Origin: JAGLHV01 sp023143305 [NCBI: Clostridia bacterium]
GTDB taxonomy: Bacteria; CBDUZB01; JAGLHV01
Assembly: GCA_030637025.1 (NCBI GenBank)
Contig: DAOVVV010000037.1
Span: 1-23,304, forward strand
Direction: 5' to 3'
Length of the DNA stretch: 23,304 nucleotides
Under the pieces are notes generated by a model. The model was not told the DNA's origin. It saw only the letters and a program-made list of their open reading frames with translations, and ran no database searches. This document shows, in pieces, positions 4,936 through 22,167 of the stretch. Positions within the stretch are counted from its first letter, which is position 1. Each line of letters opens with the position of its first letter. Both the position numbers and the translations under genes were made by a program.

Positions 4936-4963
4936 TTGACAAAATAAGTTATTGTGTTATTTT
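4936..4963 (+). promoter_or_regulatory. Promoter of the riboswitch-protease-PorV operon
   Basis: TTGACA (4936-4941) is followed after 16 nt by TATTTT (4958-4963). The -35 box is perfect and the -10 box is moderate. Transcription would start near 4970, about 35 nt before the aptamer. Confidence 0.6.
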
Positions 4964-5000
4964 TGAAATGTAGTAGCAGTACAGGGGGAAAAGCTAATTT

Positions 5001-5087
5001 ATTTCGACAAAAGCAAATCTCGAGCAATCGAGAGACGCAAAGCCACGGTCCACCATTAAGTAATGGCGGAAGCCGGGCTACCGAAAA
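5001..5087 (+). ncRNA. Cyclic-di-GMP-I (GEMM-I) riboswitch
   Basis: The sequence carries the GEMM-I hallmarks in order. GCAAA is followed by a perfect hairpin capped by a GCAA (GNRA) tetraloop (UCUCGA-GCAA-UCGAGA). Then come GACGCAAAGCCACGG, a second hairpin (CCAUU-AAGU-AAUGG), and the 3' signature GCCGGGCUACCGAA. A short closing stem UUUCG/CGAAA is possible. This family binds the second messenger cyclic-di-GMP. The aptamer ends one or two bases before the protease start codon and no terminator follows, so control of translation is the likeliest output. Whether it is an on or off switch cannot be read directly. Confidence 0.9.
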
Positions 5088-7556
5088 ATGAAAAACAAAT
5101 TAGCCATTTTCCTATTAATTTTATCAAGCCAGGCGTTCCTTGCCGGCGAAAAAACTTATGCAGTAATTAATCCATCTTTAACTAAAAATTCAATGCAATT
5201 TCATCCTTCAAAAAATAAATTCAAGGTAAAAACTATACCCCGGGAAATTTTAATTAAATTCAAGTCAAATTCTTTATTGATAAAAAATCAGTTTTCCTTA
5301 AAAAACAAACAACATAAAATAAAAAACATCTTTACCCTCTCCGGTCAGAAAAACATAAAAGAAAAAAACATTTCCAAATGGCATAAAATCTCTTTACCCC
5401 CAAATACAACGTTAGAGGAACTATCCGAAATTTACAAGAATTGCCCTGAGATAGAATTGGTAGAACCAAACCACATCTACGATATCTGCAGTTCCCCTAA
5501 CGATCCTTATTATAATTCTTCTACCAGCTGGGGACAATCTTACCGGGATATGTGGGGATTACACAAAATAGGCCTTTCCCATGCATGGGAAATAGAAAAA
5601 GGGAATGCATCAATTATTGTAGCCGTGGTAGATACGGGAATAGACCATACCCATCCGGATATCACTCATAATATCTGGCATAATTCCGGAGAAATTCCCG
5701 ATAACGGTATTGACGACGATCACAATGGCTATATAGATGACACAATAGGATGGAATTTTACTAATAATTCTAATGACCCTAAAGATGGACAAGGACACGG
5801 CAGTCACATTGCCGGGACTATTGCCGGAATAACTAATAATGCGACAGGAATTAGCGGAATTTCCTGGAATTCACAAATAATGTCCGTTAAAGGAATAAGT
5901 GATAACGGCTGGGGAACAGCCGCTGACTTAGCCAACAGTATAAAATATGCAGCTGATAACGGAGCGAACATTATTAATTTAAGCTGGGGAGGAATAGGTA
6001 CCAGCTGGATAATAAAAGAAGCCCTGGATTATGCTTACAGTAAAGGATGTATTATTGTTGCCGCTGCCGGAAATAGTAATCAGGATGTAAATACTTTTTT
6101 CCCTGCTAATTATGAAAAGGCTATTACTGTTGCCGCAACTAATTTTCTGGACGAAAAAACTTTTTTTTCTAATTATGGAACGAAAATTGATGTCGCAGCT
6201 CCGGGAATGGATATTTTATCTCTAAAAGCCGAAGGAACGGTTACTTCCGGGGTTGTAGGAACTAATTACTGCCGATTAAGCGGCACCAGTATGTCAGCAC
6301 CTCATGTTTGTGGAATAGCCGCTCTTATTCTTTCCCGGCATCCTGATTATACCAACGAAAAAATCGCTACACTCATAACCTGCTCTGCAGATGATTTGGG
6401 AGAGGAAGGAAAAGATATTTATTTTGGCTGGGGTCGAATAAACGCTTATAAAGCCCTCTTAGCCAGTGACGGAATATTTATTACCGACAGGGATTTAACG
6501 GTAATAGATACCCCTGGTGATAAAGGAAAAAGTATAACTATTTCCTGGCCGAAAAATTCCTACTCTGAAATTGAAGGATATAAAATCTATTACAGTCTTA
6601 CTTCTTTTACCGACTTATCGCAAGCCACTTATTATCCTTCTTCTCCTCTAAACAATCCCCAGGCAACTTCTGCTATTATAACTAACTTAGGAAGCGAATC
6701 CTGCGGTTATTATTTTTCTGTAATCGGAAATATTGACCGGGAAACAATGAGTACAGATTTAAACTTAACCACTTCTTTTTCTACTACAGAAGCAACCTAT
6801 CCGGTAAATAATACTATTAATACACTTACTGATAATGAAGTTATTATCGCCGGATTTGACCCGCAAACTAAAGTCGTTATTCCTCAGGGAACAAGCAATA
6901 ATGAAAAAACATTGGATATTTTTAAACCTAACACTTCCGAATTACCCAATCAAGAAGGGGAAGAGTTTTCCTCTCTGAACGACCAATCAGATGAACTTCT
7001 ATCTACTATCAGAGAAATCAAAACTTCTTCGGATTTAGCAGGAAGAATTAATCTAACTATTCCTTATCAAATAAGTTACTCTTCTTCCCCTCTTTATTCT
7101 CAAGAAAACAATTTAAGAATTTTTCAATTAAATGAAATCAAAAAATCATGGGAAATGGTTTCCGGTTTTCAAAAAGTAGATAAAGTGTTTAAGAACGTTT
7201 CTTGTGAAATTGAAAATCCTGATTGGCAAAATAGCACATTATACCGGATATTTCCGGCAATTCTCCATGCCCAAAAATTAAATCAAGTATGGGTTTATCC
7301 TAATCCCTATAAACCTAATTCTTTCAGTCATCATACTAAAATAATTTTTAGTAATTTAACACAGGAAGCAACGATAAGAATTTTCAATCTTGCAGGAGAA
7401 ATGGTCTTTAAAGGACAGGAAACGGATAGTGACGGAAAATACCAATGGCCGGTGACAAATAATAACGGAAAGAAACTGGCCAGTGGAATATATATTTATT
7501 TAATTACTAATAATCAAGGAGATAAGAAAACAGGTAAAATAGGAGTTATAAAATGA
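5088..7556 (+). CDS. Secreted subtilisin-like serine protease (S8) with FlgD-like C-terminal tail
   Basis: The 822-aa product starts with a signal peptide (MKNKLAIFLLILSSQAFLAG). A propeptide-like region follows (about 50-130). The S8 catalytic domain spans about 160-460, with Asp182 in VVDTGIDHTHPDI, His237 in GHGSHIAGTIAG, oxyanion Asn329 in AAAGNS and Ser401 in LSGTSMSAPHVCG. The GEIPDNGIDDDHNGYIDD stretch is an insert common in cell-surface subtilases and probably binds calcium. An FN3-like domain (about 480-570) and a long linker lead to a FlgD-like tail (about 740-822) with WVYPNPYKP, RIFNLAGEMV, SGIYIYLI and terminal VIK, typical of a type A T9SS-like sorting domain. No separate Shine-Dalgarno is visible because the riboswitch abuts the ATG. 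The next gene overlaps by ATGA. It could process cell-surface proteins or degrade external protein. Confidence 0.93.
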   Translation: MKNKLAIFLLILSSQAFLAGEKTYAVINPSLTKNSMQFHPSKNKFKVKTIPREILIKFKSNSLLIKNQFSLKNKQHKIKNIFTLSGQKNIKEKNISKWHKISLPPNTTLEELSEIYKNCPEIELVEPNHIYDICSSPNDPYYNSSTSWGQSYRDMWGLHKIGLSHAWEIEKGNASIIVAVVDTGIDHTHPDITHNIWHNSGEIPDNGIDDDHNGYIDDTIGWNFTNNSNDPKDGQGHGSHIAGTIAGITNNATGISGISWNSQIMSVKGISDNGWGTAADLANSIKYAADNGANIINLSWGGIGTSWIIKEALDYAYSKGCIIVAAAGNSNQDVNTFFPANYEKAITVAATNFLDEKTFFSNYGTKIDVAAPGMDILSLKAEGTVTSGVVGTNYCRLSGTSMSAPHVCGIAALILSRHPDYTNEKIATLITCSADDLGEEGKDIYFGWGRINAYKALLASDGIFITDRDLTVIDTPGDKGKSITISWPKNSYSEIEGYKIYYSLTSFTDLSQATYYPSSPLNNPQATSAIITNLGSESCGYYFSVIGNIDRETMSTDLNLTTSFSTTEATYPVNNTINTLTDNEVIIAGFDPQTKVVIPQGTSNNEKTLDIFKPNTSELPNQEGEEFSSLNDQSDELLSTIREIKTSSDLAGRINLTIPYQISYSSSPLYSQENNLRIFQLNEIKKSWEMVSGFQKVDKVFKNVSCEIENPDWQNSTLYRIFPAILHAQKLNQVWVYPNPYKPNSFSHHTKIIFSNLTQEATIRIFNLAGEMVFKGQETDSDGKYQWPVTNNNGKKLASGIYIYLITNNQGDKKTGKIGVIK

Positions 7557-8485
7557 AAATTATTTTATTATTACTAATAAATTATTTCTGTTTGTTCTGC
7601 GGAATTTGTTTTACCTCTAATATAGGCACTACAGGAGCTCAATTCTTAAAAATCGGTATAGGTGCCCGCCCTATCGCTATGGGTGAAGCTTTTGTTGCTG
7701 TAGCCAACGATGCTAATTCCTGCTATTGGAACCCTGCCGGATTAAGTGAAATTACAACCCGGCAAACAACTACTACCTATATTCAATGGCTCGAAGAAAT
7801 TGGATATAACTACTCCAGTTATATCCAACCTATAAAGGATAACCATTTTCATTATGGAACAATCGGGCTTAGCGTAGCTTATTTGGGTATGGATGCTATC
7901 CCCAAAACCCAAATCGATTCCAATGATAACCTCGTAGAAACAGGAAAAACCTTTGATGCTTTAGACCTTGCTTTTATTTTTTCTTACGGGGGAAGAATAA
8001 AAAAATTTCTTTTGGGTTATAACATTAAATATATCAAACAAACAATTGAAGCAGAAAATGCTTCTACTTATAGTTTTGATTTAGGAATGAAATATCTTTC
8101 TTCCGATAACCTCTCTTTTGGTTTAGTTGCACAAAATATCATCGGTAAAATTAAATTTGTCAAAGAAGAAGATTCCCTGCCATTGAACATTAAAGGCGGT
8201 ATCGCCTATAAAACGGCTCATAATTCCTTGTTTTCCATAGACATTCATTTCCCGTTGGAAATAAACCAACCCAGTTACCACCTGGGCGGAGAACAAATCT
8301 TAAGTAATTTACTTATCCTTCGCGGAGGATATAAAATTAATACCCTCTCTGAATCTAATGAATTATCCGGATTATCTCTTGGACTGGGCCTTAATTGGAG
8401 AAAATACCATTTAGATTATGCCTGGGTACCTCATGGCAATTTAGGTCAAACTCATCATCTTTCTTTTTTCCTGAAGTTTAACTAG
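7553..8485 (+). CDS. PorV/PorQ-like outer-membrane beta-barrel protein
   Basis: The 310-aa product has an N-terminal signal peptide, then the family hallmark IGTTGAQFLKIGIGARPIAMG, EAFVAVANDA and CYWNPAGLSEI. Alternating beta-strand pattern continues to the end (HLSFFLKFN), fitting a FadL/PorV-type outer-membrane barrel. In T9SS bacteria PorV escorts cargo with C-terminal sorting domains to the cell-surface attachment complex. The gene overlaps the protease stop by ATGA with AGGAG seven nt upstream, so the two are translationally coupled, which supports a carrier-cargo pairing. It is expected to share the riboswitch of the operon. Specificity for this protease is inferred from position only. 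Confidence 0.88.
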   Translation: MKIILLLLINYFCLFCGICFTSNIGTTGAQFLKIGIGARPIAMGEAFVAVANDANSCYWNPAGLSEITTRQTTTTYIQWLEEIGYNYSSYIQPIKDNHFHYGTIGLSVAYLGMDAIPKTQIDSNDNLVETGKTFDALDLAFIFSYGGRIKKFLLGYNIKYIKQTIEAENASTYSFDLGMKYLSSDNLSFGLVAQNIIGKIKFVKEEDSLPLNIKGGIAYKTAHNSLFSIDIHFPLEINQPSYHLGGEQILSNLLILRGGYKINTLSESNELSGLSLGLGLNWRKYHLDYAWVPHGNLGQTHHLSFFLKFN

Positions 8486-9077: not shown

Positions 9078-10664
9078 TTAATCAGTCAAAATTACAAATT
9101 CCACACGTCTGTTTTCAGTCCGTCCCACCTTAGTTTTATTAGAACTTACGGGTTTTGTTTCTCCAAAACCCAAACAACTTAACCGCCCTCTGTTAATACC
9201 CTTTTTTACTAAATAATTAAATACGCTTTTCGCTCTCTTTTGGGAAAGGTTTAAATTATTCTCTGCCCTTCCGATTGAATCCGTATGGCCCTCTATCCTT
9301 ACTTTATAAAGGGGACATTTATTTAAAATTTCTACCACCTGATTTAAAGATGGTTTATCCAATATGCTGATTTTTGCATTTCCCGATTTAAAATGAGCTT
9401 TTACCGTAATAATTATTTTCTTTTTCTCTTTTCTTATTTCTAACTTTTTCGTTTTACGAATAGCATCTAAAAGTGCCTGTCGCTGAGAAGCTAATGCCTT
9501 TGCTTTTGTTGCCTCCATTCGGGCTCTTCTTGCTTCCCGTTTTGCCCGCTGAGCATCTTCCTTTGCTCCCTCGGCTAACTCCTGCAATCTTCGTTTTTCT
9601 TCTTCCTCTTCCTCTTTCTTTCGTGCTCTTTCCTCTTCCTTAATTGCCACTGTTTCTATTTCCTGCGGTGATTCTCCAAAACGGATGGTTAAAGATGCAC
9701 GATGTGAGCCACTTGTGTCTTCTATTTCTAACGGCCAGATGAAAGCATAATCAAACTGTAACCCGAATTTTCCCATTGTTTCATTATTAAAACTAAACCC
9801 GGAAGTAACCTCACGATTATTTCCCCCGATTCTAAATCCCCATGTCCTGCGGGCAAACCAACTTTCCCAACCCAGATAAACAATCAACTCTTCATCCCTA
9901 TAACTAACATCTACCGCAGAAACAATATTTTCCACCGCTAAAACATTTAAAAAATTACAATCTCCAAAATAATAAGCCAATCCTAACCTTCCTTCCAAAG
10001 GCACCTTATCTTCCGTCTTCAATCCTACATCCGGTTCGGTAATATTCTTAGCCATCAATCCAATAGACAAACCTTTCTCTTTTTTGCCGTTAGCTTTTAT
10101 TAATACCCCCACATCCCCGGTAAAATTACCTTTAGAATGGCCGTCGATAAAAACAGGGTCTTCCCTTGTCCGGTCATCCGTTGTATAAGAATGATTTAAA
10201 TATTTCAGATTAACCCCTAAAAAAAATGCCGGAATCAACTGGGGAAGAAAATCATTGACCTTCTTTGCATAAGAAAAGGTAAAGGTATTTTCTTCATATA
10301 ATTCCGTAGTAACAAAATTAGCCCAGGTCATTCCAAAACTACCTATTTTATTTAAAGGGAAAACAAAAGCACCATAATTTAAACCTAAATCAACCTTTTC
10401 CTCCCCTGCATACAAGTTCAACCCGGTAAATAAGCGGGCATACATAAAATTTGCTTCACAGCGTTTGATTTGGGCAATCCCGGCAGCATTCCACAAAGGA
10501 GCAGAGGCATCATCGCTTATTGCGGTAAATGCTCCTCCCATCCCTGCCGACCTTGTTCCCCAACCGCTATCTTTAAAAGCCGCTTCAGATAAAGAAACCA
10601 ATAACATATAAAACATAATAACCAAAACAGCTAAATTAACTTTATTAAATATTCTCCTATCCAT
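9078..10664 (-). CDS. PorV-like outer-membrane barrel fused to a coiled coil and OmpA peptidoglycan-binding domain
   Basis: The 528-aa product (from ATG 10662-10664) has a signal peptide (MDRRIFNKVNLAVLVIMFYM...). A PorV/UPF0164-like barrel follows, with AAFKDSGWGTRSAGMGG, AFTAISDDASAPLWNAAGIA and last strand HRASLTIRF. A highly charged helix comes next (about 331-422, EEERARKKEEEEEEKRR...). The OmpA C-terminal domain (about 423-528) has EGHTDSIGRAENNLNLSQKR, with Asp462, and NRRVEFVI. OmpA domains of this type bind the diaminopimelate peptide of peptidoglycan, so the barrel would be tethered to the wall. The frame stays open to 10790, but that extension lies in a dispersed repeat and would hide the signal peptide, so the inner ATG is chosen. 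The paralogue at 17723 lacks the helix and OmpA part. Last gene of its block. Confidence 0.9.
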   Translation of the reverse strand: MDRRIFNKVNLAVLVIMFYMLLVSLSEAAFKDSGWGTRSAGMGGAFTAISDDASAPLWNAAGIAQIKRCEANFMYARLFTGLNLYAGEEKVDLGLNYGAFVFPLNKIGSFGMTWANFVTTELYEENTFTFSYAKKVNDFLPQLIPAFFLGVNLKYLNHSYTTDDRTREDPVFIDGHSKGNFTGDVGVLIKANGKKEKGLSIGLMAKNITEPDVGLKTEDKVPLEGRLGLAYYFGDCNFLNVLAVENIVSAVDVSYRDEELIVYLGWESWFARRTWGFRIGGNNREVTSGFSFNNETMGKFGLQFDYAFIWPLEIEDTSGSHRASLTIRFGESPQEIETVAIKEEERARKKEEEEEEKRRLQELAEGAKEDAQRAKREARRARMEATKAKALASQRQALLDAIRKTKKLEIRKEKKKIIITVKAHFKSGNAKISILDKPSLNQVVEILNKCPLYKVRIEGHTDSIGRAENNLNLSQKRAKSVFNYLVKKGINRGRLSCLGFGETKPVSSNKTKVGRTENRRVEFVILTD

Positions 10665-10760
10665 CTGATTATTCACTTCCCATTGACTACGAATTTTACT
10701 CCCCCCCCTGACACCTTCAACTGTTCTTAACCGTCTTTTCCAACCGTCTTTATTATTTTG

Positions 10761-10922
10761 CCTGCCCGCTAGTTTTATTGGGCAAGTCATTCCTGCGAAA
10801 GCAGGAATCTATTCTTTTGTCTTTTTCTTTGTTTTTAACTTCGCTGTTATCTTTTATCCTTTAACCAATCCAACCAATAAAACCAATTCAACCGTCTTTT
10901 AACTGTCTTTTACCCGTCTTTT
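10761..10922. repeat. Intercistronic mosaic repeat (inverted-repeat module plus 9- and 11-nt tandem units)
   Basis: TGCCC (10763-10767)/GGGCA (10780-10784) and ATTCCTGC (10789-10796)/GCAGGAAT (10801-10808) form two small hairpins. A near-identical copy of this double module lies at 18831-18876. Directly after the stop of the 10923 gene, in minus orientation, there are three 11-nt AAAAGACnGnT units and three 9-nt units (GAATTGGTT, TTATTGGTT, GGATTGGTT). Confidence 0.75.
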
Positions 10923-12086
10923 TTACTTCGCTACGACTATTACTCCGCTTACTTTTTTCCCATTGTATTCATATTGATATATATAAACACCACTCTCTAC
11001 TATATCACTATCGTCATTGCGTCCATCCCATTGATAAGGAGCTATCTCTATAGTTCTTACTTTTCTACCTGTAACATCATAAATTTTAATGGAAACATTA
11101 TCCGTATCGGTTAACCCGTCAAAAGAAGCATAATCATTTATGCCATCCTGACTGGCGGGCGTAATAATTCTTTGCCGGGGACAATGAGTAAGCTCATTAA
11201 TTAACGCCGGAAAGACGGCAAATAAAGTATTATGGTCCAAAGAAGTAGTTACTGTATTTAAATCACTATTCACTGTTCCTCCTACTAACCTCCACTCAAA
11301 CCCATCCCACCATAAAATTTTTAATTCCCCTTCGGTAATAGGTGTCCCATCCTCTTTGACTTCACCGCTAAGATCAAAATAAAGTAAAGTTAACTTATAG
11401 GGTAAATTAAACTCAATATTTTCCGGTAAAATTTCATATACTGCTAACGGATTAACACTGCCGGCCACACCAAATCCCGCAGGAACATCAGCCGGGTCTT
11501 TCTGGCTAAAGGTTATCTCTATTTCACTTTCCAACGCACCTGCAGGTATTTCAAGACACACCTCTCCGTCTTCAGGATTTCCATCTACTAAAACAATAGT
11601 GCCCCCCTCAGGACCGATAATCTTAGTAACACTGGGATTTACAGCTATAATCTGCGCCGCACTTTTAGTACTAACACCCCCATCGCTATAAACAACCTCT
11701 ATATAACAGTTTACCCCATCTGTAGTTACTACATCTCCCGGAATATAATCTTTAAATTCATAAGTAGAAAGGGAAGGAGTAAACTCACGGGTAATTGCCC
11801 TATAGCTTGTCTCCGGTTCGGAAACCTTTTTATAATATAAAGATACCTTCTCCATTGTAATTTCCGTCATAATTTCCGCTTCCACATAAATCTTACTTCC
11901 CACTATATTAACTTCCGAAGGAATCTCAAACATTATCATCGCTTCAGGAATCAAGGAAACCAAAGCAACAGAACTTATAGTTTGTAATGTAGCAGCTATT
12001 AGCATAGAACAAGAAAAACACATAATGTTTAATCCCATTGCTAAACACAAAATTATCGATACTTTTTTCCTGCTGCGTTTAAACAT
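10923..12086 (-). CDS. Secreted protein with Ig-like, ZU5-like and FlgD-like sorting domains
   Basis: The 387-aa product has a signal peptide (about 1-31) and an Ig-like domain (about 55-150, VGSKIYVEAEI, VSLYYKKV). A ZU5-like beta domain follows (about 155-300: IIGPEGGTIVLVDGNPEDGE, LEIPAGALESEIEITFSQK, LWWDGFEWRLVGGTVN). The FlgD-like tail (about 305-387) has RIITPASQDGINDYASFDG, YQWDGRNDDSD, ESGVYIYQYEYNGK and VIVVAK. AAGGAGAAGG sits just before the ATG. It matches the C-terminal two thirds of the 18955 gene domain for domain, so each of the two minus-strand blocks has one such protein. The sorting tail suggests export to the surface with the adjacent PorV-OmpA protein as partner. Precise role unknown. 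Confidence 0.85.
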   Translation of the reverse strand: MFKRSRKKVSIILCLAMGLNIMCFSCSMLIAATLQTISSVALVSLIPEAMIMFEIPSEVNIVGSKIYVEAEIMTEITMEKVSLYYKKVSEPETSYRAITREFTPSLSTYEFKDYIPGDVVTTDGVNCYIEVVYSDGGVSTKSAAQIIAVNPSVTKIIGPEGGTIVLVDGNPEDGEVCLEIPAGALESEIEITFSQKDPADVPAGFGVAGSVNPLAVYEILPENIEFNLPYKLTLLYFDLSGEVKEDGTPITEGELKILWWDGFEWRLVGGTVNSDLNTVTTSLDHNTLFAVFPALINELTHCPRQRIITPASQDGINDYASFDGLTDTDNVSIKIYDVTGRKVRTIEIAPYQWDGRNDDSDIVESGVYIYQYEYNGKKVSGVIVVAK

Positions 12087-12342: not shown

Positions 12343-13164
12343 TTAATAAATTATAATCTTTCCTTTTCTATTCATTTTAAAAGAGATCATTTTCTCAAGA
12401 ATATCCTCCGGATTACCATAATCAACAAACATACGCATTTTATATTTACCCTTTTTTAAATCCGCTTTTTTCCAGCTCCCATGATAAAATTCCGTTCGTT
12501 TAGGAAAAACCGGACGATTACATCGAAGTCTTATTCTTTTAATCTCTTTACCTTTTTTATCTATAATAACCGCTTCACACTGGGGGCGTAGATGAATATT
12601 TCCTTTATTTTCAATCTCCGCCGCAATCCACAACCCTTCTTCTGCTTTCTTTTTTTCTTTTATTTTAGACTTTTTTATAATTACTTTACTAATATTCGCT
12701 TTAACAATTTCAGTCCCTCTAATTATAACATATAAAGGAACACTAATCACCACATTAATCATACTTTCTTCCGGGCTTTCAGGAGAAAAACTATTCATAG
12801 CCATTAATAAACCCTTAGCTTTTTGCGGAATAGAAATCTTAAATTTTATTTCTTTTTTCTCCCCCGGTTTAAGCTTAAACTCCGAAGGAACAAATTGTAA
12901 CCAATCAGCAATCTTAATTTCTTTGTTTTCATCAGAGAGAAACCAGTATCTTGATTTTATACTAACTTTTGTAGTTTCCTTTTTCTGATTAAGAACAAAG
13001 TAACTCCCTTCTATTTTCTCCCCTGCAGCAATTTTTATCTCTATTTTACGGGGAGTGACACTAACAGTAGGTTTTTTCGCTAAAATTAACCCCACACAGA
13101 TTAAATTCAACCATGCCATCAAAAAAACTAATCTGATTGTCCACTGTTTACAATTTATTTTCAT
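12343..13164 (-). CDS. Exported Ig-like protein resembling pilus-chaperone/DUF916-type domains
   Basis: The 273-aa product has a signal peptide (about 1-30). An N-terminal beta-sandwich follows, with VTPRKIEIKIAAGEKIEGSY, WLQFVPSEFKLKPGEKKEIK and FKISIPQKAKGLLMAMNSFS. A second beta domain carries AAEIENKGNIHLRPQCEAVI and GSWKKADLKKGKYKMRMFVD. Such two-domain Ig proteins (periplasmic chaperone-like, or the extracellular Ig modules beside WxL proteins) bind or organise surface polymers. Assignment to one family is not possible by eye. The protein is very Lys-rich. It lies between the 235-aa secreted protein and the ZU5/FlgD protein. The 16782 gene occupies a comparable place in the other block. 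Confidence 0.75.
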   Translation of the reverse strand: MKINCKQWTIRLVFLMAWLNLICVGLILAKKPTVSVTPRKIEIKIAAGEKIEGSYFVLNQKKETTKVSIKSRYWFLSDENKEIKIADWLQFVPSEFKLKPGEKKEIKFKISIPQKAKGLLMAMNSFSPESPEESMINVVISVPLYVIIRGTEIVKANISKVIIKKSKIKEKKKAEEGLWIAAEIENKGNIHLRPQCEAVIIDKKGKEIKRIRLRCNRPVFPKRTEFYHGSWKKADLKKGKYKMRMFVDYGNPEDILEKMISFKMNRKGKIIIY

Positions 13165-14042: not shown

Positions 14043-15251
14043 TTACTCTTCCCACCGTACGTTATCTATCCAAAAAGTAATTCCACTCCCTCCATCGGCA
14101 AACATGGAAAAAGGTAATTTGATCTTACTAAAATTAATAGGAAGCCCATAAGTTTTACCTACCAGAGTGGAAAGATCTATTGCTACAGAATGCCAGGCAT
14201 CATCCAACGGCACCCCTAAATCAGCATAAACGTATTTTTCTGCAGAATCTAAACGACCCAGGGTATCTGTCCATTCAACACTTACCCCAAAATCATTACT
14301 GGCCTTTACATCAAATTTAAGATAAGCATCTGAGTATTCAGACATATCTGTTTCCACTGAAGGGCCGCCAATCCCATCAAATCCAAACTGAATCCATATA
14401 CCGCCCCAACCACCGGTAATAGTAAATTTTGAACTTGCCGGAGCTTCGGTATAAATTGTATCATCACCAACCATTTCAATTGTACCCCAAAATCCAATAT
14501 ACCCACCATCCGGGTCAGGTGGATTGAGTACATCCGCCTTTAAAGCAGAATATTTATAACTATCACAAAGGATACCATAAACGAGACTATCATCCAAAGA
14601 ATATAGCTCCAGAATTAATTTATTAGTTGTATACTGCTGGGCAGTAGATTGATGAAACCTTCCGGCCAAATAAACAAGATTAGGAGAATCATTCCATGCA
14701 GGATTGTACGGCTCTGTATCGGATTCATGCCAATAAATACCGTTTTCATCCCAAACCCGGACATAACTATTGTCATCTTCCCAAACAGGATTAACACGAC
14801 TATAATCCGACATCCATTTCCAACAATGATTGTTATAAAACTCCTCACCTACCCCTTCCCCCGGTTCAGGATCAGGAGCAATGACAACTTCCGTTGAGCC
14901 TTTCACGCTAAAAGCTAAAGGGATATAGGTTGAAGGATGAATTAGCCCCACTAAACCACCCGGATCATCTGCTGTACCGGTATACAAAGGGTCAGCACCA
15001 GTACCTTTATTATCCGTATACATTTGAACACCCCAATCCAGAAGATTACAATCAATATTAATCTCAATATATTGGTCCGCTACTTTCCAGGTATCAGACC
15101 CGGCAATTATATCTGAATAGGTAATTTGAGTATCGGAAGTGTTATCCTCAACTTTTTTAATCGCGATATCAAAAGACCAATGTGCATATACCGGAAGACT
15201 TAATATTATCATCAATATAAATCCCCAAATAATCATTTTTTTTTGTCTCAT
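14043..15251 (-). CDS. Secreted two-domain protein, first gene of the compound-riboswitch block
   Basis: The 402-aa product has a signal peptide (about 1-23). An N-terminal module (24-219) is paralogous to the whole mature 235-aa neighbour (WKVADQYIEI, MYTDNKGTGADPLYTG, SDYSRVNPVWEDD, LILELYSL). A C-terminal domain (about 222-402) has the look of a carbohydrate-binding jelly-roll, with SKFTITGGWGGIWIQFGFDG, YLKFDVKA, WHSVAIDLS and final GITFWIDNVRW. The N-terminal module is not recognised. A comparable jelly-roll ends in FVDDIKYV in the first gene of the other leader-controlled block. AAGGAAA precedes the ATG. The leader terminator lies about 39 nt upstream, so expression should depend on read-through. 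Confidence 0.87.
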   Translation of the reverse strand: MRQKKMIIWGFILMIILSLPVYAHWSFDIAIKKVEDNTSDTQITYSDIIAGSDTWKVADQYIEINIDCNLLDWGVQMYTDNKGTGADPLYTGTADDPGGLVGLIHPSTYIPLAFSVKGSTEVVIAPDPEPGEGVGEEFYNNHCWKWMSDYSRVNPVWEDDNSYVRVWDENGIYWHESDTEPYNPAWNDSPNLVYLAGRFHQSTAQQYTTNKLILELYSLDDSLVYGILCDSYKYSALKADVLNPPDPDGGYIGFWGTIEMVGDDTIYTEAPASSKFTITGGWGGIWIQFGFDGIGGPSVETDMSEYSDAYLKFDVKASNDFGVSVEWTDTLGRLDSAEKYVYADLGVPLDDAWHSVAIDLSTLVGKTYGLPINFSKIKLPFSMFADGGSGITFWIDNVRWEE

Positions 15252-15289: not shown

Positions 15290-15345
15290 AAAAAACGGGC
15301 TACCTTACTTGGCTATAATTATCTTATAGTCAGTTCGGTAGCCCG
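15290..15345 (-). terminator. Regulated intrinsic terminator of the leader before the 402-aa gene
   Basis: On the minus strand CGGGCTACC (15337-15345) pairs perfectly with GGTAGCCCG (15296-15304), followed by six Ts. An inner stem CTATAA/TTATAG lies between them. The left arm is part of the aptamer 3' signature GCCGGGCTACCGAA, so aptamer folding and terminator folding exclude each other. This predicts read-through when the aptamer is folded. Confidence 0.85.
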
Positions 15346-15509
15346 GCTATCTTGTTTTTTAAAAAAAGACCCGTAACTTTGCCTGCTTACTAAGCAAAAA
15401 CTACTTTTTGTCCCGCATAGTAAGCGATTCATCCATTATCCGCCGCTACTTAACAACGGAAAAATAAATAAATGTCTTCGCCTCACGACGAATCTGCCTT
15501 TTCGGATAA
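15334..15509 (-). ncRNA. Compound cyclic-di-GMP-I-like riboswitch leader
   Basis: Read on the minus strand, the RNA begins with AAAAGGCAGA and a hairpin capped by GUGA (GNRA), UUCGUC-GUGA-GGCGAA, like the 5' half of GEMM-I. It ends with GCAAAGUUACGGGUC (15368-15382) and AGCCGGGCUACCGAA (15334-15348), the 3' half of GEMM-I. Between them lie about 85 nt not found in the canonical aptamer at 5001-5087. This insertion includes a CCGUU/AGCGG hairpin with UUAAG in the loop. A stem UUAUCCG (15503-15509)/CGGAUAA (15436-15442) closes a separate 5' domain. It is either one aptamer with a large insertion or two fused, diverged domains. Cyclic-di-GMP binding is inferred. Confidence 0.7.
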
Positions 15510-15551: not shown

Positions 15552-15580
15552 AGTATAGCACAAAACTTCTCTTTTGTCAA
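15552..15580 (-). promoter_or_regulatory. Strong sigma70-type promoter for the compound leader and 402-aa gene block
   Basis: On the minus strand TTGACA (15575-15580) and TATACT (15552-15557) are separated by exactly 17 nt. The start point would be near 15545, just before the leader. It lies 25 nt after the stop codon of the gene at 15606. Confidence 0.85.
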
Positions 15581-15605: not shown

Positions 15606-16544
15606 TTATTCATACGCCTGGGCACTAACACAAACAGATATTTTTTGTGGACTGCCAATGGAAGTTGTCTGCGGAGCTTTAAATTCAACCCATAAATATA
15701 CAAATTCTCCTACAGATAAACCTACCCCATCTTCATTCCCGGCAAATTTACCATCCGGAGAAGAGCCACATTCTGCCGGGGTTGTAGATAAAGCATGCTG
15801 ACTATTATTAAAACTCCCTTCTGACGGCCGAGTTGAATTAAACATTACACTAAGAATATACCGGTTATGCTCAATCGGTTCACTTTGCACTGCAGTCCAG
15901 CCGGGAGGATTTTTTAACTTTAATAAACAATTTAATACACCCTCACCAATATTTCTAACCAGAAAAGATTGAGTAGATATTGCATCCCCACCGGCAGAAA
16001 CCTCTCCAAAATCATAGGCACCTTCTATAGATATACCGATTATTTCTGCCCTGGCTATAGCATAAGCACAACTACCTATCCCTGTATAAGGGTCATAATT
16101 AGAAATATATCCCTCATAAGGCGGAGGGCCATCAGCAGCTATTATCTCCTCTGGAACTTCTTCTAAGACAGCATTATCCGTGGCTTTAATGGAAATATAA
16201 TAAAGTTGCCCCGGATTAAATCCGGTAAGCATATATCTTTCTAATTCCCCTTTTGCTTTTGGTGTCCAGGTTTGAGAATATATAGTGGCATTGTTATATG
16301 CTTCTTCTGTATCTATGGGACTACCGGAATATCTCACCTCATAACTTGCCACTCCGGGTTGCCAATCAGATAATTCGTTCGGAACTCTCCAGGTTATTTC
16401 TATTTCTCCTCTGTCCAATCCGGTATAAGCTGCTAAATCATCAAGAGTTAAAAGATATCCCGGGACGGAAGTGGCATAACTATATGCAATTACTCCCAAA
16501 ATAATACTACTTGAGATTATAAATCCCCTCAAAATCTTTTTCAT
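15606..16544 (-). CDS. Secreted protein with FN3-like domain and a C-terminal module shared with the 363-aa protein
   Basis: The 312-aa product has a signal peptide (MKKILRGFIISSSIILGVIAYSYA). An FN3-like domain spans about 45-135 (ITWRVPNELSDWQPGVASYE, RYMLTGFNPGQLYYISIKAT). A C-terminal beta module spans about 165-312 (DFGEVSAGGDAISTQSFLVR, NPPGWTAVQSE, ECGSSPDGKFAGNEDG, VYLWVEFKAPQTTSIGSPQK). That module matches residues 195-363 of the protein at 20611 (DPPGWSSSADE, QECADSGAVGKFDSDDSGNG, AVWIRLKTPTGGSISGQQ). The gene is the last of the second leader-controlled block. AGGGGG precedes the ATG. No terminator is seen after it. Role unknown; surface or structural protein is likely. Confidence 0.83.
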   Translation of the reverse strand: MKKILRGFIISSSIILGVIAYSYATSVPGYLLTLDDLAAYTGLDRGEIEITWRVPNELSDWQPGVASYEVRYSGSPIDTEEAYNNATIYSQTWTPKAKGELERYMLTGFNPGQLYYISIKATDNAVLEEVPEEIIAADGPPPYEGYISNYDPYTGIGSCAYAIARAEIIGISIEGAYDFGEVSAGGDAISTQSFLVRNIGEGVLNCLLKLKNPPGWTAVQSEPIEHNRYILSVMFNSTRPSEGSFNNSQHALSTTPAECGSSPDGKFAGNEDGVGLSVGEFVYLWVEFKAPQTTSIGSPQKISVCVSAQAYE

Positions 16545-16781: not shown

Positions 16782-17669
16782 CTATTTCGTCGTTACATAA
16801 ATCTTACAATAAACCTCTTTAGCCACATCCCCTGAAAAAACCTTAATCCGGGCAATAAACATATATTTTTTCTTGCGATATTTTCTTTTTTTAGGAAAAC
16901 TAAGAAACACCTTTATCTTTTTGCTGCTCTTCATTCCGACAATTGCTTTCTTGGCACTAAAAGTCAAAAAGGACGGGTCAGGACAATCTTCATAACCTTT
17001 AGTAAGTTCAACCTGAGAATCCGCTACCCTGATACTTTCGATATTATAGAGACTTCCGATTTCCCCTAAATTTTTTATTTCCATAACCTTACCGGTTTTT
17101 TTCTCTATATCAATTATTGCGCCCACTTTCACTTTTTCAAGGTGTATTTCCTGCGGATTAATTGTAAAATTTAAATTTAGCGGTTTCTTTATTTTCCCTT
17201 TTTTATGAAAAGTAGTAAACAAGAATTTACTCTCTACCCCTACATTAATTACTTCGTTAGTGCTGTAAGACCAGATATTAAACTGATATTTTTTATCCAG
17301 ATATTCATCCCTATCCGGAATAGAAATAACTATATCCATTGCCTGTTTTTTTCCGGGCCCAATAATAGAATTTTCAGGAATAATTTTTATCCAGGAAACG
17401 TTTGGTATCGGTTGGTAACCTTCTTTTAATTTCTTTTTAGCCGGGGATAATACTTCTGCTTTAAGATTTATTGCCCTTTCCCCGGTATTGGTAATAACTA
17501 AAAATAAATTAGCTAAATGCGAGGTATGATGAGTTTGTCCCACCCTTAAATTTTGAATAGTTACTTCTTCAAAAGAAGCAATAATTCCTGTAGCATAAAC
17601 AGGATGGATAAAACAAACTATAGTAAACAAAAAGAAACAACTAATAATGATTAAACCTTTTTTAATCAT
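16782..17669 (-). CDS. Secreted protein of two Ig-like domains
   Basis: The 295-aa product has a signal peptide (about 1-26) followed by two beta-sandwich domains. The first (about 27-160) has LFLVITNTGERAINLKAEVL, PNVSWIKIIPENSIIGPGKK, MDIVISIPD and DKKYQFNIW. It matches the N-terminal domain of the 18955 product (LSWIQLVEP, INMIINIPE, DKKYQFRLE). The second (about 165-295) has TINPQEIHLEKVKVG, VMEIKNLGEIG and YMFIARIKVFSG. The pattern resembles ASH or periplasmic-chaperone-like Ig folds. AGGAGAGAAGG precedes the ATG. It sits 53 nt behind the PorV-like gene and corresponds in position to the Ig-like gene at 12343. Role inferred as surface or assembly protein. Confidence 0.8.
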   Translation of the reverse strand: MIKKGLIIISCFFLFTIVCFIHPVYATGIIASFEEVTIQNLRVGQTHHTSHLANLFLVITNTGERAINLKAEVLSPAKKKLKEGYQPIPNVSWIKIIPENSIIGPGKKQAMDIVISIPDRDEYLDKKYQFNIWSYSTNEVINVGVESKFLFTTFHKKGKIKKPLNLNFTINPQEIHLEKVKVGAIIDIEKKTGKVMEIKNLGEIGSLYNIESIRVADSQVELTKGYEDCPDPSFLTFSAKKAIVGMKSSKKIKVFLSFPKKRKYRKKKYMFIARIKVFSGDVAKEVYCKIYVTTK

Positions 17670-17722: not shown

Positions 17723-18730
17723 TTAGAAATGAATTCCTAAAGAAACACGATGTGTCCCGCTGGTTTCTTCTATTTCCAGCGGCCAGATAAGGGCATAATC
17801 AAACTGGACGGCAAAAACTTCACCCATTAAATGATTTAATCCCATACCCAAAGTAAACTCTTGTAAATTATAGCCTATCCGGAAGGCAAAAGCAGATGAA
17901 AACCGCGTTTCCATCCCTAAATGAAAGTTAATATCTTTATCGCGATAAGTAAAATCAAAAGCAGGGATAAATCCTTCTATGTTCAAAAAATTAAATATTC
18001 TACAAGCATTACCTCTATAAGCAATTCCTGCTCTCATTTCTAAAGGAACTTCATCTTTCAATTTATACTCACTATTATCCAGACCTACATCCGGCTGATT
18101 AATATTTTTCAGGGATAAACCAAGAGACACCGGTGAATCTTTTTGGGGTTTAACTAAAACTCCTAAATCAACAGCACATGCACCCGCAGAATCCCCATCT
18201 TCAAATACCGGATCATCTACTGTCCGTTCATCCAGGGTATACCCATGATTTAAATATTTTAAATTCATTCCCAAAAATACAACCGGAACCATTTTAGGAG
18301 CAAAATCATTAATTTTTCTGGCATAGGAAACACTAAGAGTGTCTTCTTTATACAATTTTGTAGAAGCAAACCTTGCCCAGGATAAGCCAAAAGCTCCCAT
18401 TCTTTCCGTCGGACAAATAAAAGAAAAATAATTCAATCCTAAAGTCGTAGTATCTTCTCCGGCATATAATTTTAAACCGCTAAATAATCGAGCATACATA
18501 AAACTTGCTTCGTATTGTTTTACCTGAGCTATTCCTGCCGGATTCCATAAAGGAGCATTAGCATCATCAGCTATTGCCACAAAAGCACCGCCCATTCCGG
18601 CCGGCCGTGTTCCCCAACCGCTATCTTTAAATGCCGCTTCACCCAAAGTAACAAAAAACAAACAATAAACACCTGAAATAATAAATAACCCGATTTTATT
18701 AAATGTTTTTCTATTCATCTTAATTACCAT
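17723..18730 (-). CDS. PorV-like outer-membrane beta-barrel protein
   Basis: The 335-aa product is a close paralogue of the barrel part of the 9078 gene: EAAFKDSGWGTRPAGMGGAF, AIADDANAPLWNPAGIAQVK, YEASFMYARLFSGLKLYAGE, WPLEIEETSG and HRVSLGIHF. The C-terminal Phe is typical of an outer-membrane barrel. The coiled-coil and OmpA parts of the paralogue are absent. Three in-frame starts exist (18739 GTG, 18730 ATG, 18718 ATG). The one at 18730 is chosen because AGGAAG lies 8 nt upstream, while 18718 would match the start used for the paralogue. By T9SS analogy it may carry the FlgD-tailed protein encoded just upstream (18955). Confidence 0.88.
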   Translation of the reverse strand: MVIKMNRKTFNKIGLFIISGVYCLFFVTLGEAAFKDSGWGTRPAGMGGAFVAIADDANAPLWNPAGIAQVKQYEASFMYARLFSGLKLYAGEDTTTLGLNYFSFICPTERMGAFGLSWARFASTKLYKEDTLSVSYARKINDFAPKMVPVVFLGMNLKYLNHGYTLDERTVDDPVFEDGDSAGACAVDLGVLVKPQKDSPVSLGLSLKNINQPDVGLDNSEYKLKDEVPLEMRAGIAYRGNACRIFNFLNIEGFIPAFDFTYRDKDINFHLGMETRFSSAFAFRIGYNLQEFTLGMGLNHLMGEVFAVQFDYALIWPLEIEETSGTHRVSLGIHF

Positions 18731-18827
18731 TTTCACCACTTCCTCTTAACTACAAATTCAAAACTTTTAAACAAATCCCAATTTCAAATTTACTACTTGC
18801 CATTCACAATCTCTTATCTTCTTCTTT

Positions 18828-20594: not shown

Positions 20595-20610
20595 CTTTAT
20601 AGACTTTTTT

Positions 20611-21702
20611 TTAACTTTTTTCCGCAGTAACTACTACGCGAATTGTTTGTTGTCCTGATATTGAACCACCTGTCGGTGTTTTGAGTCGAATCCATACTGC
20701 CCGCGTATTATTCCATGCCGAATCCCAGGAAACAGCTACACCATTACCACTATCATCACTGTCAAATTTACCTACCGCTCCTGAATCCGCACACTCCTGA
20801 GAAGTAGTAGTAATAATATCCTCTGCACCAAAATCCTCTGTTATTATACTCCCAGGTGTTACATCCGTGTTAGAAACCACACCGTAAATAACATATTCGT
20901 TAAATCCAGGGGTCTCATCAGCACTTGAAGACCAACCCGGAGGGTCAAGTACTTTAAGCAGAAAATCTTCGTTCACATCTCCGATATTGGCTACGGTCAA
21001 ATACTTATCACCTACAGCGTTTTCACTGCTAATCATCTCTATCCCATATGATGAATCTCCAAAAGCCATATTTCCGGAAACACTTACACCTACTGTTCCT
21101 CCGCTTATAGTAACCGTGATAATACCTGCTCCACCGCCCACATATTTTATATCATCAACAAAAACCTCAATCGGGTTGGTTAAACTGGAATTTTCACCTG
21201 CCGCTAACATCATCCACCAAAGATTGGTAACCGCACTCATATTTTGCTTGGAAAGATCTATTTCTGCTGCTGTCCATCCGGTAGAACTAATAGTAATCGG
21301 ATCTCCGGCAACAGTATGTTCACCGCAAGAATCCTCATCCAAAGTTCCCGAACCTACACCGAAATGAGCAACAACACCTTCTTTATTAGCAGAAACATTA
21401 AATTGCATTTTCGTATGGCCGGTTAAATCAAGAGGTATCGCTCCGCCAAAAGCTTGTGCACCGATTTTTGCCCAGGTAATTTCTTTAGGAAAAGAAAATT
21501 TTGCACAAATATCGTCTCCGCCTTCATATGGGTCAGTAATCTCTGAGTCCGTTATATCACCGGCAGCACCACTCCATAAAGACAGAACCTGCTGCCAACT
21601 ATCTTCATAAATCGGAGTATCTGCATAGGAATTACCTACCATAAACATGCTGGTTACAACTAACAACGCCATTATAACTAAAGACTTTTTCATTTTTTTC
21701 AC
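20611..21702 (-). CDS. Secreted jelly-roll protein, first gene of the second compound-riboswitch block
   Basis: The 363-aa product has a signal peptide (about 1-27). A jelly-roll, carbohydrate-binding-like domain (about 28-190) has DICAKFSFPKEITWAKIGAQ, IPLDLTGHTKMQFNVSA, GWTAAEIDLS and IEVFVDDIKYVGG. A second beta module (about 195-363) is shared with the protein at 15606. The jelly-roll resembles the C-terminal domain of the 402-aa protein that follows the other compound leader. A very strong ribosome binding site, GGAAGGAGGTGA, lies just before the ATG. About 190 nt of A/U-rich leader separate it from the main terminator. Glycan binding is plausible from the fold type but unproven. Confidence 0.85.
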   Translation of the reverse strand: MKKMKKSLVIMALLVVTSMFMVGNSYADTPIYEDSWQQVLSLWSGAAGDITDSEITDPYEGGDDICAKFSFPKEITWAKIGAQAFGGAIPLDLTGHTKMQFNVSANKEGVVAHFGVGSGTLDEDSCGEHTVAGDPITISSTGWTAAEIDLSKQNMSAVTNLWWMMLAAGENSSLTNPIEVFVDDIKYVGGGAGIITVTISGGTVGVSVSGNMAFGDSSYGIEMISSENAVGDKYLTVANIGDVNEDFLLKVLDPPGWSSSADETPGFNEYVIYGVVSNTDVTPGSIITEDFGAEDIITTTSQECADSGAVGKFDSDDSGNGVAVSWDSAWNNTRAVWIRLKTPTGGSISGQQTIRVVVTAEKS

Positions 21703-21876: not shown

Positions 21877-21891
21877 ACCTAATTATATAAC

Positions 21892-21950
21892 AAAAAAAAC
21901 CGACCCACCTACTTGGCTACAATTGTCTTATAGTCAGTTCGATAGTTCGG
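21892..21950 (-). terminator. Regulated intrinsic terminator of the second compound leader
   Basis: On the minus strand CCGAACTATC (21941-21950) pairs with GGTGGGTCGG (21900-21909) at nine of ten positions, followed by eight Ts. An inner stem CTATAA/TTGTAG matches the inner stem of the terminator at 15290-15345. The left arm is part of the aptamer 3' signature. Base changes relative to the first leader are partly matched on the opposite arm. Confidence 0.8.
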
Positions 21951-22111
21951 CCATCCCCCCATTACTTACCGGCGGACCCGCAACTTTGCCTGCTTACCAG
22001 GCACAAATCAAAAATATACCTTTTGACCTGACTCCAGTAAGAGACTTACCCGTCATCACTTAGCGACGAATAAGTGCCTTCGCCTCACAGCGAATTTGCC
22101 TTTTCGTATAA
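21938..22111 (-). ncRNA. Compound cyclic-di-GMP-I-like riboswitch leader, paralogue of 15334-15509
   Basis: Read on the minus strand, AAAAGGCAAA and hairpin UUCGCU-GUGA-GGCGAA (22079-22094) form a GEMM-I-like 5' half. GCAAAGUUGCGGGUC (21975-21989), the CCGCCGGUAAGUAAUGGGGG region and AUGGCCGAACUAUCGAA (21938-21954) form the 3' half. About 85 nt separate the halves. The insertion contains a UCGUCG/UGACGG hairpin with UAAGU in its loop and a UGCCUG/CAGGCA hairpin. UUAUACG (22105-22111) can pair with CGGGUAA (22046-22052), one mismatch, closing a 5' domain as in the paralogous leader. AGUCAG/CUGACU may close the 3' domain. Ligand inferred. Confidence 0.7.
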
Positions 22112-22137
22112 AATTTTCAAATATCAAATCTAAAAAT

Positions 22138-22167
22138 ACTATACCATATTTTTTTTACCTTTGTCAA
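22138..22167 (-). promoter_or_regulatory. Strong sigma70-type promoter for the second compound leader
   Basis: On the minus strand TTGACA (22162-22167) and TATAGT (22138-22143) are separated by 18 nt. The start point would be near 22131, a few bases before the leader. It lies directly after the stop codon region of the PorV-like gene at 22190. Confidence 0.8.

Follow-up and report, generated by a model that had tools for sequence, protein, structure and literature searches.

GEMM-I (c-di-GMP-I) RNAs are a well-studied riboswitch class in which the junction forms the ligand pocket. Leaders 2 and 3 of the locus described here have GGCA, a GNRA-capped P2, GCAAAG, P3, and a terminator platform in common with this class (RF01051 and RF03167), but differ from it by a two-hairpin insert of 91 or 86 nt, respectively, in J2/3. 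The accessible parts of the relevant papers state that the A or G state of position 20 decides the choice between cGAMP and c-di-GMP (PMC6456294), that the ligand contacts include C92 (PMC9049102), and that a Vc2 G20A/C92U mutant binds c-di-AMP (PMC9049102, PMC7288161). Compared with tandem c-di-GMP-I riboswitches, as portrayed in the accessible portion of PMC9481103, the locus is similar in having several GEMM leaders close by, with tandem pairs in four relatives, but here each leader stands apart, and a single ligand core is present in the expanded form. Likewise, the type IX cargo/shuttle pairs presented in the available sections of PMC12618676 and PMC9143113 resemble the operons here in that the gene for a tailed cargo protein neighbors one for a barrel like PorV or PorP/SprF. 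Unlike those pairs, the operons here are riboswitch-led, the relatives are not labelled Bacteroidota, and PorU is not detected.

The window, meaning the whole 23,304-nt stretch of DNA that was analyzed, is likely to contain three class-I cyclic-dinucleotide riboswitches that control type-IX-like cargo-shuttle operons, with leaders 2 and 3 enlarged by the J2/3 insert and ligand-ON, and leader 1 compact. Sequence, covariation, terminator overlap, operon conservation, and enrichment were observed directly; the ligand, the sign of regulation, and the secretion route are inferred. A link between cyclic-dinucleotide riboswitches and cargo-plus-PorV genes in uncultured lineages would provide a testable rule for the timing of surface dressing. 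The leaders and their promoters (from a sigma-70-like scan) are as follows.

4936..4963, + strand: leader 1 promoter, TTGACA-16-TATTTT, with TG before the -10
5003..5086, + strand: leader 1, c-di-GMP-I-type aptamer of compact form whose position 20 is A (ACAAAAGCAAA)
15552..15580, - strand: leader 2 promoter, TTGACA-17-TATACT
15334..15506, - strand: leader 2 (W2), expanded GEMM-I aptamer (Rfam and R3)
Leader 2 parts, - strand: GGCA 15498-15495, P2 15492-15477 (GUGA loop), GCAAAG 15382-15377, P3 15378-15340, C92 15338
15383..15473, - strand: leader 2 J2/3 insert, 91 nt (PA 15473-15427, PB 15424-15386)
22138..22167, - strand: leader 3 promoter, TTGACA-18-TATAGT
21938..22108, - strand: leader 3 (W3), expanded GEMM-I aptamer (R3)
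Leader 3 parts, - strand: GGCA 22100-22097, P2 22094-22079, GCAAAG 21989-21984, P3 21985-21944, position 92 (U) 21942
21990..22075, - strand: leader 3 J2/3 insert, 86 nt (PA 22075-22044, PB 22041-21993)

A preliminary description had proposed three GEMM-I-type leaders, and all three are real: leaders 1 and 2 reach the Rfam cut-off, and leader 3 is recognized by R3, a covariance model made from eight leaders outside the window whose E-values are rough owing to a shortened calibration. In the Rfam scan, leader 1 matches RF03167 (c-di-GMP-I-GGC) at 5003-5086(+) with 65.2 bits (E=1.4e-13), above the gathering threshold of 59 bits. The RF01051 search suggested for the minus-strand leaders succeeded for leader 2 but not for leader 3. 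Leader 2 aligns over 15397-15334(-) with 35.5 bits against a gathering threshold of 35 (E=0.0011), and it barely reaches this cut-off because the Rfam alignment skips one helix, P2. Leader 3, at 22108-21938(-), yields no Rfam match at E<=1 and thus stays below the gathering threshold. RF01051 misses it because of the insert, not because the RNA is unrelated, and it is therefore a relative of the c-di-GMP-I family rather than a member by Rfam's rule. R3 scores 104.1 bits on 21938-22108(-) (E=4.5e-30), 86.9 bits on 15334-15506(-) (E=6.5e-25), and 53.5 bits on 5003-5085(+) (E=7.2e-15). Rfam-based surveys may under-count such expanded RNAs, given that one of the two in the window is borderline and the other is missed. 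Rfam also returned miRNA-like matches at 20545-20601, 13187-13266, and 8098-8148, which fall far under their gathering scores and were set aside as plain hairpins.

The proposed sigma70-like promoters are plausible for all three leaders, weakly so for leader 1. Positions 4700-23304 contain 60 sigma-70-like sites, no excess over chance (shuffle mean 60.8), and therefore only the scores at the leaders were used. Sites with 11 of 12 matches occur just twice in the scan, once each at leaders 2 and 3, and each has TG ahead of its -10; the leader 1 promoter is among 15 sites with 10 of 12 matches, two of which carry TG.

In leaders 2 and 3, the GEMM-I aptamer carries a two-hairpin insert (PA and PB) of 86 to 91 nt in J2/3, just 5' of GCAAAG. 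The two leaders thereby depart from the P1/P2/P3 three-way junction by two more helices at J2/3, in a model drawn without P1. Both have G20 and A47, with C92 in leader 2 and U92 in leader 3, in a numbering that we take to correspond to that of Vc2. PB of leader 3 does not close as modeled in the fold of a shorter single sequence, but it does in that of a longer fragment. A complete second aptamer was considered for the insert and ruled out, as there is no second GCAAAG or GGCUACC core.

The expanded GEMM-I form is a new riboswitch architecture, shared by a small number of related uncultured bacteria, and its recurrence implies that the GEMM-I pocket tolerates, or uses, two extra helices. Twelve expanded leaders were found in eight genomes, all with the identical insert site. 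Because a blastn search of leader 2 against 60 relatives gave only partial matches, in two genomes, covariance models were used. Eight other long matches (at least 115 nt) were checked for a J2/3 insert and none had one, since GCAAAG (or CACAAAG) directly follows P2. No description of the insert was found in the literature searched, including the accessible parts of PMC7266159, PMC9481103, and PMC12452182; most subscription journals lay outside that search, so absence is not proven.

The inserted helices appear to covary strongly, as judged from the alignments. In a four-sequence alignment made by MAFFT only, 99.3% of cells are paired, and 11 cells have changes on both sides compared to 5.3 in shuffles (0/500 as high). 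Two of the five measures applied to this unfitted alignment are weak: pairs with both-sided change (7 versus 4.6; 17/500 shuffles as high) and further pair types (22 versus 22.8; 384/500). In an eight-sequence alignment fitted to the model, both-sided changes occur in 25 of 37 pairs, versus 11.3 in shuffles, and in 15 of the 19 insert pairs. The eight non-window leaders alone, again in a fitted alignment, give 24 of 36 pairs versus 15.0.

Leaders 2 and 3 are each followed by an intrinsic terminator.

15290..15345, - strand: leader 2 terminator, 9-bp outer stem 15345-15337/15304-15296, then T6
21892..21950, - strand: leader 3 terminator, outer stem 21950-21941/21909-21900, then T8

In both leaders the 5' arm of the terminator takes six paired positions of the P3 3' strand of the aptamer. 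Since terminator and P3 compete, the two leaders are probably ligand-ON switches, as modeled from these overlaps. c-di-GMP or a close relative would bind the expanded junction, the bound ligand would hold P3 together and so prevent the terminator, which needs the P3 3' strand, and a rise in ligand would switch on operons 2 and 3. In favor of the main reading, diguanylate cyclase domains occur in G001-G003, with 24 GGDEF matches.

The genes served by the three leaders are listed below.

5088..7556, + strand: S8 subtilase with a C-terminal T9SS-type tail (PF00082 212.7 bits; CHU_C 34.2; TIGR04183 33 bits, over cut-off)
7553..8485, + strand: PorV-family outer membrane barrel (NF033709 181.7 bits, cut-off 90)
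14043..15251, - strand: first gene of operon 2, exported protein of no known family
13274..13981, - strand: exported protein of no known family, in part a paralogue of 14043-15251, with DNA blocks that are 71% and 77% identical
12343..13164, - strand: exported Ig-like protein with weak WxLIP/ASH similarity, all under cut-off
10923..12086, - strand: CHU_C-tailed protein (39.9 bits), like the ZU5/CHU_C gene of operon 3
9078..10790, - strand: PorV-like barrel with a C-terminal OmpA domain (PF00691 81.2 bits; NF033709 65.8 bits, under the cut-off of 90)
20611..21702, - strand: first gene of operon 3, exported protein whose homologues head a GEMM-led operon in L080, L081, and L085
18955..20526, - strand: exported protein combining a weak ZU5 match (16.7 bits; cut-off 21) with a CHU_C tail (28.8 bits; cut-off 27)
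17723..18739, - strand: PorV-family barrel (NF033709 97.8 bits, cut-off 90; PF11751 PorP_SprF 23.5 bits, cut-off 22.3)
16782..17669, - strand: exported Ig-like protein, conserved fourth gene of operon 3
15606..16544, - strand: exported fn3-like protein (under cut-off), similar to the C-terminal portion of the final operon gene in L080 and L081

Much as the preliminary description had it, the genes behind each leader on its strand include ones for proteins whose N-termini look by eye like signal peptides, for a single protein with a C-terminal tail, and for a single barrel of the PorV family. Each operon would supply proteins exported through Sec, one of them with a type-IX-like C-terminal tail and paired with a PorV/PorP-like barrel of its own, which may act as the shuttle or anchor of that tailed protein. 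An AlphaFold model of 20611-21693 with three homologues had a mean pLDDT of 45.9 and was discarded.

The linkage between leaders and operons is conserved, with compact GEMM leaders heading the same operons in distant relatives. The order of operon 3 recurs behind a compact leader in L080 and L081 (five genes, with one extra in L081) and in L085 (at least the first four), and operon 1 subtilase homologues lie behind tandem GEMM leaders in four genomes. In five of eight loci, no GEMM at gathering score was found near the PorV-like gene; three of these contigs are short, and L082 and L084 have 5 and 10 kb upstream.

The expected enrichment of GEMM leaders before PorV and CHU_C-tailed genes was also seen, across 74 leaders in nine genomes. 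Among the matches listed, which for PorV cover the stronger end of the scores, 19 of the 74 have a PorV match on their own strand no more than 6 kb downstream, as opposed to four upstream on that strand and one downstream and three upstream on the other. CHU_C matches within 6 kb number 20 downstream and two upstream on the same strand, and none in either direction on the other. Density alone would give about 1.9 (PorV) and 1.5 (CHU_C), and these counts are not independent, because orthologues and tandem pairs are each counted singly. The 55 leaders with no PorV match listed within 6 kb downstream on their own strand reflect short contigs in part. The 74 leaders comprise 46 of 49 rows in a first set and 28 of 41 in a second. 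Dropped from the first were the sub-threshold G002:C94 (22.8 bits) and G003:C338 (18.9 bits) and G003:C257:6957-7043, the second piece of an expanded leader; dropped from the second were 13 G061 rows with the same matches at the same places as G001. Two expanded leaders were counted with ends set by model R1, and G002:C32 with a shortened end.

The preliminary description had gone further and envisioned a regulon that switches a whole surface secretion or assembly system. A local set of GEMM-I leaders before cargo-plus-barrel operons stands, but what the operons carry is cargo-shuttle pairs rather than the secretion machinery: the gene for the SprA-like translocon lies outside the window operons, and a GEMM leader lies upstream of the SprA match in just one of nine genomes (G064). 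It is rather unlikely that the operons are ordinary surface-protein clusters with no link to type IX secretion, their tails and barrels being general outer-membrane features of the lineage. Such a reading gains from the failure to find the catalytic part of the PorU sortase in any of the nine genomes with profile NF033707, whose listed matches all start no earlier than position 861 of 1095, in the tail region, with none over cut-off. Also, the SprA-like ORF of L169 has no Pfam match except CBM_11 at 0.044 and no PDB sequence match. PorV family barrels and CTD-tailed cargo, which go with type IX secretion, are both present, and against the reading three window tails exceed the CHU_C cut-off. 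Furthermore, a distant SprA match occurs in all nine genomes and in none of 14 controls, and the full L169 ORF reaches 159.9 bits (E=5.3e-47) in four stretches, with no match over the cut-off of 200. No paper joining type IX secretion to c-di-GMP riboswitch control was found in the literature searched; most subscription journals were outside the search, so absence is not proven.

Several views of the insert itself also need to be weighed. Neutral expansion, with peripheral hairpins at the junction edge that have no effect on ligand or switching, is quite possible, if short of an even prospect. Inserts do differ greatly in length, with 91 nt in leader 2 and 86 nt in leader 3 against roughly 40 nt in G064 and G438, and sequence is conserved within the window-type group only; however, about six loci have two predicted hairpins at one site, ending within a few nucleotides of GCAAAG or GCAAAA, and the helices covary strongly. 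Another origin is suggested by PA of the window type, which resembles a GEMM P3 arm, and therefore the insert probably arose, to judge from sequence, when a tandem aptamer collapsed. In a comparison with 62 P3 arms, the best matches to PA are P3 tips of compact leaders, at 19 of 24 positions in W2 and 19 of 23 in W3. None of 200 single-letter shuffles does as well for either, and 2/200 and 5/200 do for the G002 and G003 orthologues; in addition, tandem GEMM pairs precede the operon 1 subtilase homologues in four related genomes. That the expanded leaders still act as a two-input or cooperative device, with PA as the P3 arm of the lost first aptamer competing with the true P3 for docking to P2, is unlikely. 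A second ligand core (GCAAAG or GGGCUACC) is absent from the insert, PA of five other tested inserts has no P3 likeness (34-108 of 200 shuffles as good), and neither do four tested PB hairpins (110-199 of 200). A GNRA-like loop that would fit PB as a former P2 was seen at a single locus type (G064:C51 and its G068 and G070 counterparts).

More speculative, and in our judgment improbable, is the proposal that the insert defines a new functional class in which two aptamers have fused, with PA as a transplanted P3-like arm that, along with the second arm PB, adjusts or alters how the ligand is recognized. Under this proposal, leader 3 with its U92 could favor an adenine-containing dinucleotide, and neighboring operons for surface proteins would read different dinucleotides, leader 1 having A20, leader 2 G20/C92, and leader 3 G20/U92. 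It is very doubtful that leaders 2 and 3 are decayed aptamers that sense no dinucleotide and serve as plain terminators or attenuators. Leader 3 does have U92 and lacks an Rfam match at E<=1, and in silico the terminator form is strongly favored over the forced aptamer form (by 28.4 kcal/mol in W2 and 8.5 kcal/mol in W3, with ligand and tertiary contacts uncounted). Yet GGCA, GCAAAG, and P3 are retained in both leaders and in their G002 and G003 orthologues, and covariation continues in P2 and the insert helices.

The leaders do not form the uniform set that had been described: leader 1 is marked by A20 and by running up to the start codon, leaders 2 and 3 by the large insert and a terminator. 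Leader 1 ends 1-2 nt ahead of the ATG (5088), and given this contact and A20, it may respond to 3',3'-cGAMP and act at the level of translation. Translational control of operon 1, possibly by cGAMP, could run opposite in direction to that of leaders 2 and 3. A at position 20 is what the GEMM-Ib (cGAMP) subclass would call for in leader 1, and the same residue is common to the GEMM-Ib (c-AMP-GMP) riboswitches of Geobacter covered in the accessible part of PMC6456294. Unlike in those systems, as far as that text describes them, no Hypr-type Ser occurs in the 20 readable GGDEF (diguanylate cyclase) domains of G001-G003 (15 Asp, 5 Asn), four more of the 24 matches being unreadable, and the leader 1 orthologues in G002 and G003 have G20. 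The G001 copy of leader 1 shares A20. Position 20 was read in 73 GEMM sequences, 48 from the 49 rows of the first set and 25 from the 28 rows retained in the second, where three lacked a locus; one of the 73, G067:C24:15207, has C.

The riboswitch-led set of surface operons in the window is real, and in it a known type of riboswitch takes a new architecture. The three leaders named in the preliminary description were recognized correctly: leader 1 is a good Rfam match (65.2 bits), and leaders 2 and 3 score 86.9 and 104.1 bits with R3, a covariance model of eight expanded leaders from outside the window. Both minus-strand leaders had been expected to match at the level of RF01051, which holds for leader 2 (35.5 bits against a threshold of 35) but not for leader 3, which has no match at E<=1 in the Rfam search of the window.

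Features of the window
5003-5086 (+), leader 1, GEMM-I aptamer
5088-7556 (+), subtilase gene, first of operon 1
15506-15334 (-), leader 2, expanded GEMM-I aptamer
22108-21938 (-), leader 3, expanded GEMM-I aptamer
20611-21702 (-), operon 3 gene
18955-20526 (-), operon 3 gene
17723-18739 (-), operon 3 gene, PorV-family barrel
16782-17669 (-), operon 3 gene
15606-16544 (-), operon 3 gene
9078-10790 (-), operon 2 gene, PorV-like barrel with OmpA domain

By eye, leaders 2 and 3 consist of CGAAAAGGCA, a GNRA-capped P2, extra sequence (91 and 86 nt, respectively), GCAAAG, P3 and CCGAA/UCGAA, and the extra sequence is predicted to make two successive hairpins, PA and then PB. RNAalifold predicts both, with compensatory changes, from a MAFFT alignment of leaders 2 and 3, G002:C122 and G003:C257. 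On this alignment, which unlike both eight-sequence alignments was not fitted to a model, 99.3% of cells are paired in the named structure versus 30-49% for slid versions, and both-sided change occurs in 11 cells versus 5.3 in shuffles. Weak measures on these four sequences give 7 pairs with both-sided change versus 4.6 (17 of 500 shuffles were as high) and 22 further pair types versus 22.8. Both-sided change affects 25 of 37 pairs with eight sequences (11.3 shuffled) and 24 of 36 in the eight non-window leaders (15.0 shuffled), counts that lean toward the modeled structure because those alignments were fitted to models. Folded singly, leader 2 forms both hairpins; leader 3 forms PA but not PB, and a longer fragment forms both. 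Position 92 (window 21942) is U in leader 3 and C in leader 2, G002:C122 and G003:C257.

The first model, R1, built from those four sequences, found two further expanded leaders, both in G064, and confirmed the insert in G002:C32 and G001:C168 at the place where it had first been spotted by eye. R2 (eight sequences) added three in G068 and G070, and R3 one in G438, for a total of 12 in 8 genomes, where the window's genome is counted apart from G001 although both may be one species. We judge these to represent about six independent loci by orthology.

Expanded leaders (genome:contig)
Window and genomes G001 to G003: leaders 2 and 3, G001:C168, G002:C122, G002:C32, G003:C257
Other genomes: G064:C51, G064:C138, G068:C9, G068:C75, G070:C7, G438:C43

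An R3 search of 386 genomes gave matches at E<=1e-10 in 17, six with an expanded leader, and may miss leaders because filters were strict and only eight candidates were scored per genome. In this search the hits of G362 coincide in place with those of G068, and the hits of G492 with those of G064; in the R2 search those of G187 coincide with those of G002. Eight other R2 matches of at least 115 nt lack the J2/3 insert, with GCAAAG (or CACAAAG) directly behind P2. Of the 31-letter words sampled from the window, 53% also occur in G001, the closest genome compared; a JAGLHV01 record holds a protein 99% identical to the 17723-18739 product, whose farther relatives are labeled Elusimicrobia or plain bacterium, with one Clostridia.

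Because PA agrees at 19 of 24 positions in leader 2 and 19 of 23 in leader 3 with P3 tips of congeneric compact leaders (those without the insert), the insert of this locus family probably began as a P3 arm, and collapse of two tandem aptamers would be one possible route. With likeness taken as the best of 62 P3 arms and 200 single-letter shuffles as control, no shuffle was as good for leaders 2 and 3, and 2 and 5 were for two orthologues. For five other PA hairpins 34-108 shuffles match equally well, as do 110-199 for the four PB hairpins tested. Tandem GEMM pairs precede homologues of the window subtilase (37.7-44.2% identity) in four genomes; a PorV gene follows in G062, G063 and G065, and the G067 contig ends there. 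The upstream member of every pair carries C at position 20 (AAAACGCAAA) and its partner G20, and these C20 members are possibly a variant aptamer.

C20 upstream aptamers
G062:C8:20248-20340 (L122)
G063:C60:32521-32612 (L124)
G065:C132:4466-4560 (L109)
G067:C24:15207-15301 (L125)

The proposed linkage between leaders and operons was borne out. In L080 and L081 a compact GEMM leader heads homologues of the operon 3 genes in unchanged order (one extra gene in L081), and in L085 one heads at least the first four; at each of these loci the leader precedes the PorV-like gene by ~3 kb. GEMM is absent at gathering score from the other five of eight loci, three of them on short contigs; in L082 and L084 the PorV-like gene is preceded by ~5 and ~10 kb of sequence that still lacks it, and the link is therefore not universal. 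Among 74 GEMM leaders in nine genomes, PorV lies downstream of 19 versus upstream of 4 (same strand, within 6 kb; two-sided binomial p=0.0026) and CHU_C downstream of 20 versus upstream of 2 (p=0.0001), where uniform density predicts ~1.9 and ~1.5; these counts are non-independent, including orthologues and tandem pairs. Among the remaining first genes after GEMM leaders are, by eye, ones for pilin-like or membrane-anchored N-termini and for more exported proteins, along with an SprA-like gene in G064. Homologous blocks spaced ~8.05 kb apart mark operon 2 as a diverged duplicate of operon 3. The last three genes of operon 2 share 47.5, 72.3 and 76.6% identity with G002:C122. Strong hairpins without a T run lie between early genes at 20590-20550 (operon 3) and 13240-13210 (operon 2), and perhaps adjust how much of the first product is made relative to the later ones.

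Leaders and linkage thus stand as first described; the suggestion that one second messenger switches a whole secretion system exceeds the evidence. SprA-like matches occur in nine of nine genomes, all below cut-off, and in none of 14 controls; the G062 ORF (159.9 bits, E=5.3e-47, four stretches) has neither a Pfam SprA nor a PDB match, and PorU matches are confined to the tail part. At G064:C186:4830-4906 and 5577-5960 (L170), a compact GEMM leader followed by a T-rich stretch lies upstream of the SprA-like gene. By analogy, the window operons look like cargo-shuttle pairs: in Flavobacterium, type B tailed proteins often have their own PorP/SprF-like shuttle encoded alongside (PMC12618676). 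Type B cargo is bound by PorP-like proteins (PMC9143113).

Behind leaders 2 and 3, the 5' arm of a terminator (-25.2 and -15.9 kcal/mol) lies within the P3 3' strand, with six positions in common in each. Without ligand the terminator form is computed to be more stable by 28.4 and 8.5 kcal/mol, and a ligand-held aptamer would prevent the terminator, giving an ON switch. Control by leader 1 is likely translational because its ATG directly adjoins the aptamer and no terminator fits; G001, G002 and G003 share this spacing. Position 20 is A in leader 1 and in the G001 copy, and G in G002 and G003; in Geobacter, A20 marks cGAMP-responsive GEMM-Ib (PMC6456294). Of 24 GGDEF domains 20 were readable, and none of these showed the Hypr Ser; five (L065, L067, L069, L058, L073) carry Asn at this residue, which is Asp in diguanylate cyclases. 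Some leaders have two alternative P3 3' halves in succession (GCCGAGCGTATCGA then GCCGAGCTACCGAA in L008, where the second can pair with a terminator), possibly a strand-exchange switch.

Leaders with two alternative P3 3' halves
G001:C31:4467-4608 (L008)
G003:C336:3944-4085 (L031)
G002:C178:2822 (L177)
G002:C32 (L037)
G064:C32 (L204)
G069:C39 (L201)

The repeat ATTCCTGCGRAAGCAGGAAT precedes both PorV-like genes (10789-10808, 18857-18876) within a 74-nt block that is 93% identical. Because the listed start at 10790 falls within it, the 9078-10790 gene probably starts at the internal MDRRIFNKVN. An AT-rich repeat, AACCAATTTAAACCAATTCAACTGTCTTTT, and its variants recur between window genes (1496-1542, 10854-10900, 12161-12207, 12275-12321, 16583-16629, 16733-16779). 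Tandem 150-bp repeats occupy 213-3282. Those at 1555-3267 code for protein repeats weakly similar to delta-60 (52.5 bits against a cut-off of 76.5), and the protein they belong to carries a CTD-like tail; closer to the window start there is a related stretch.
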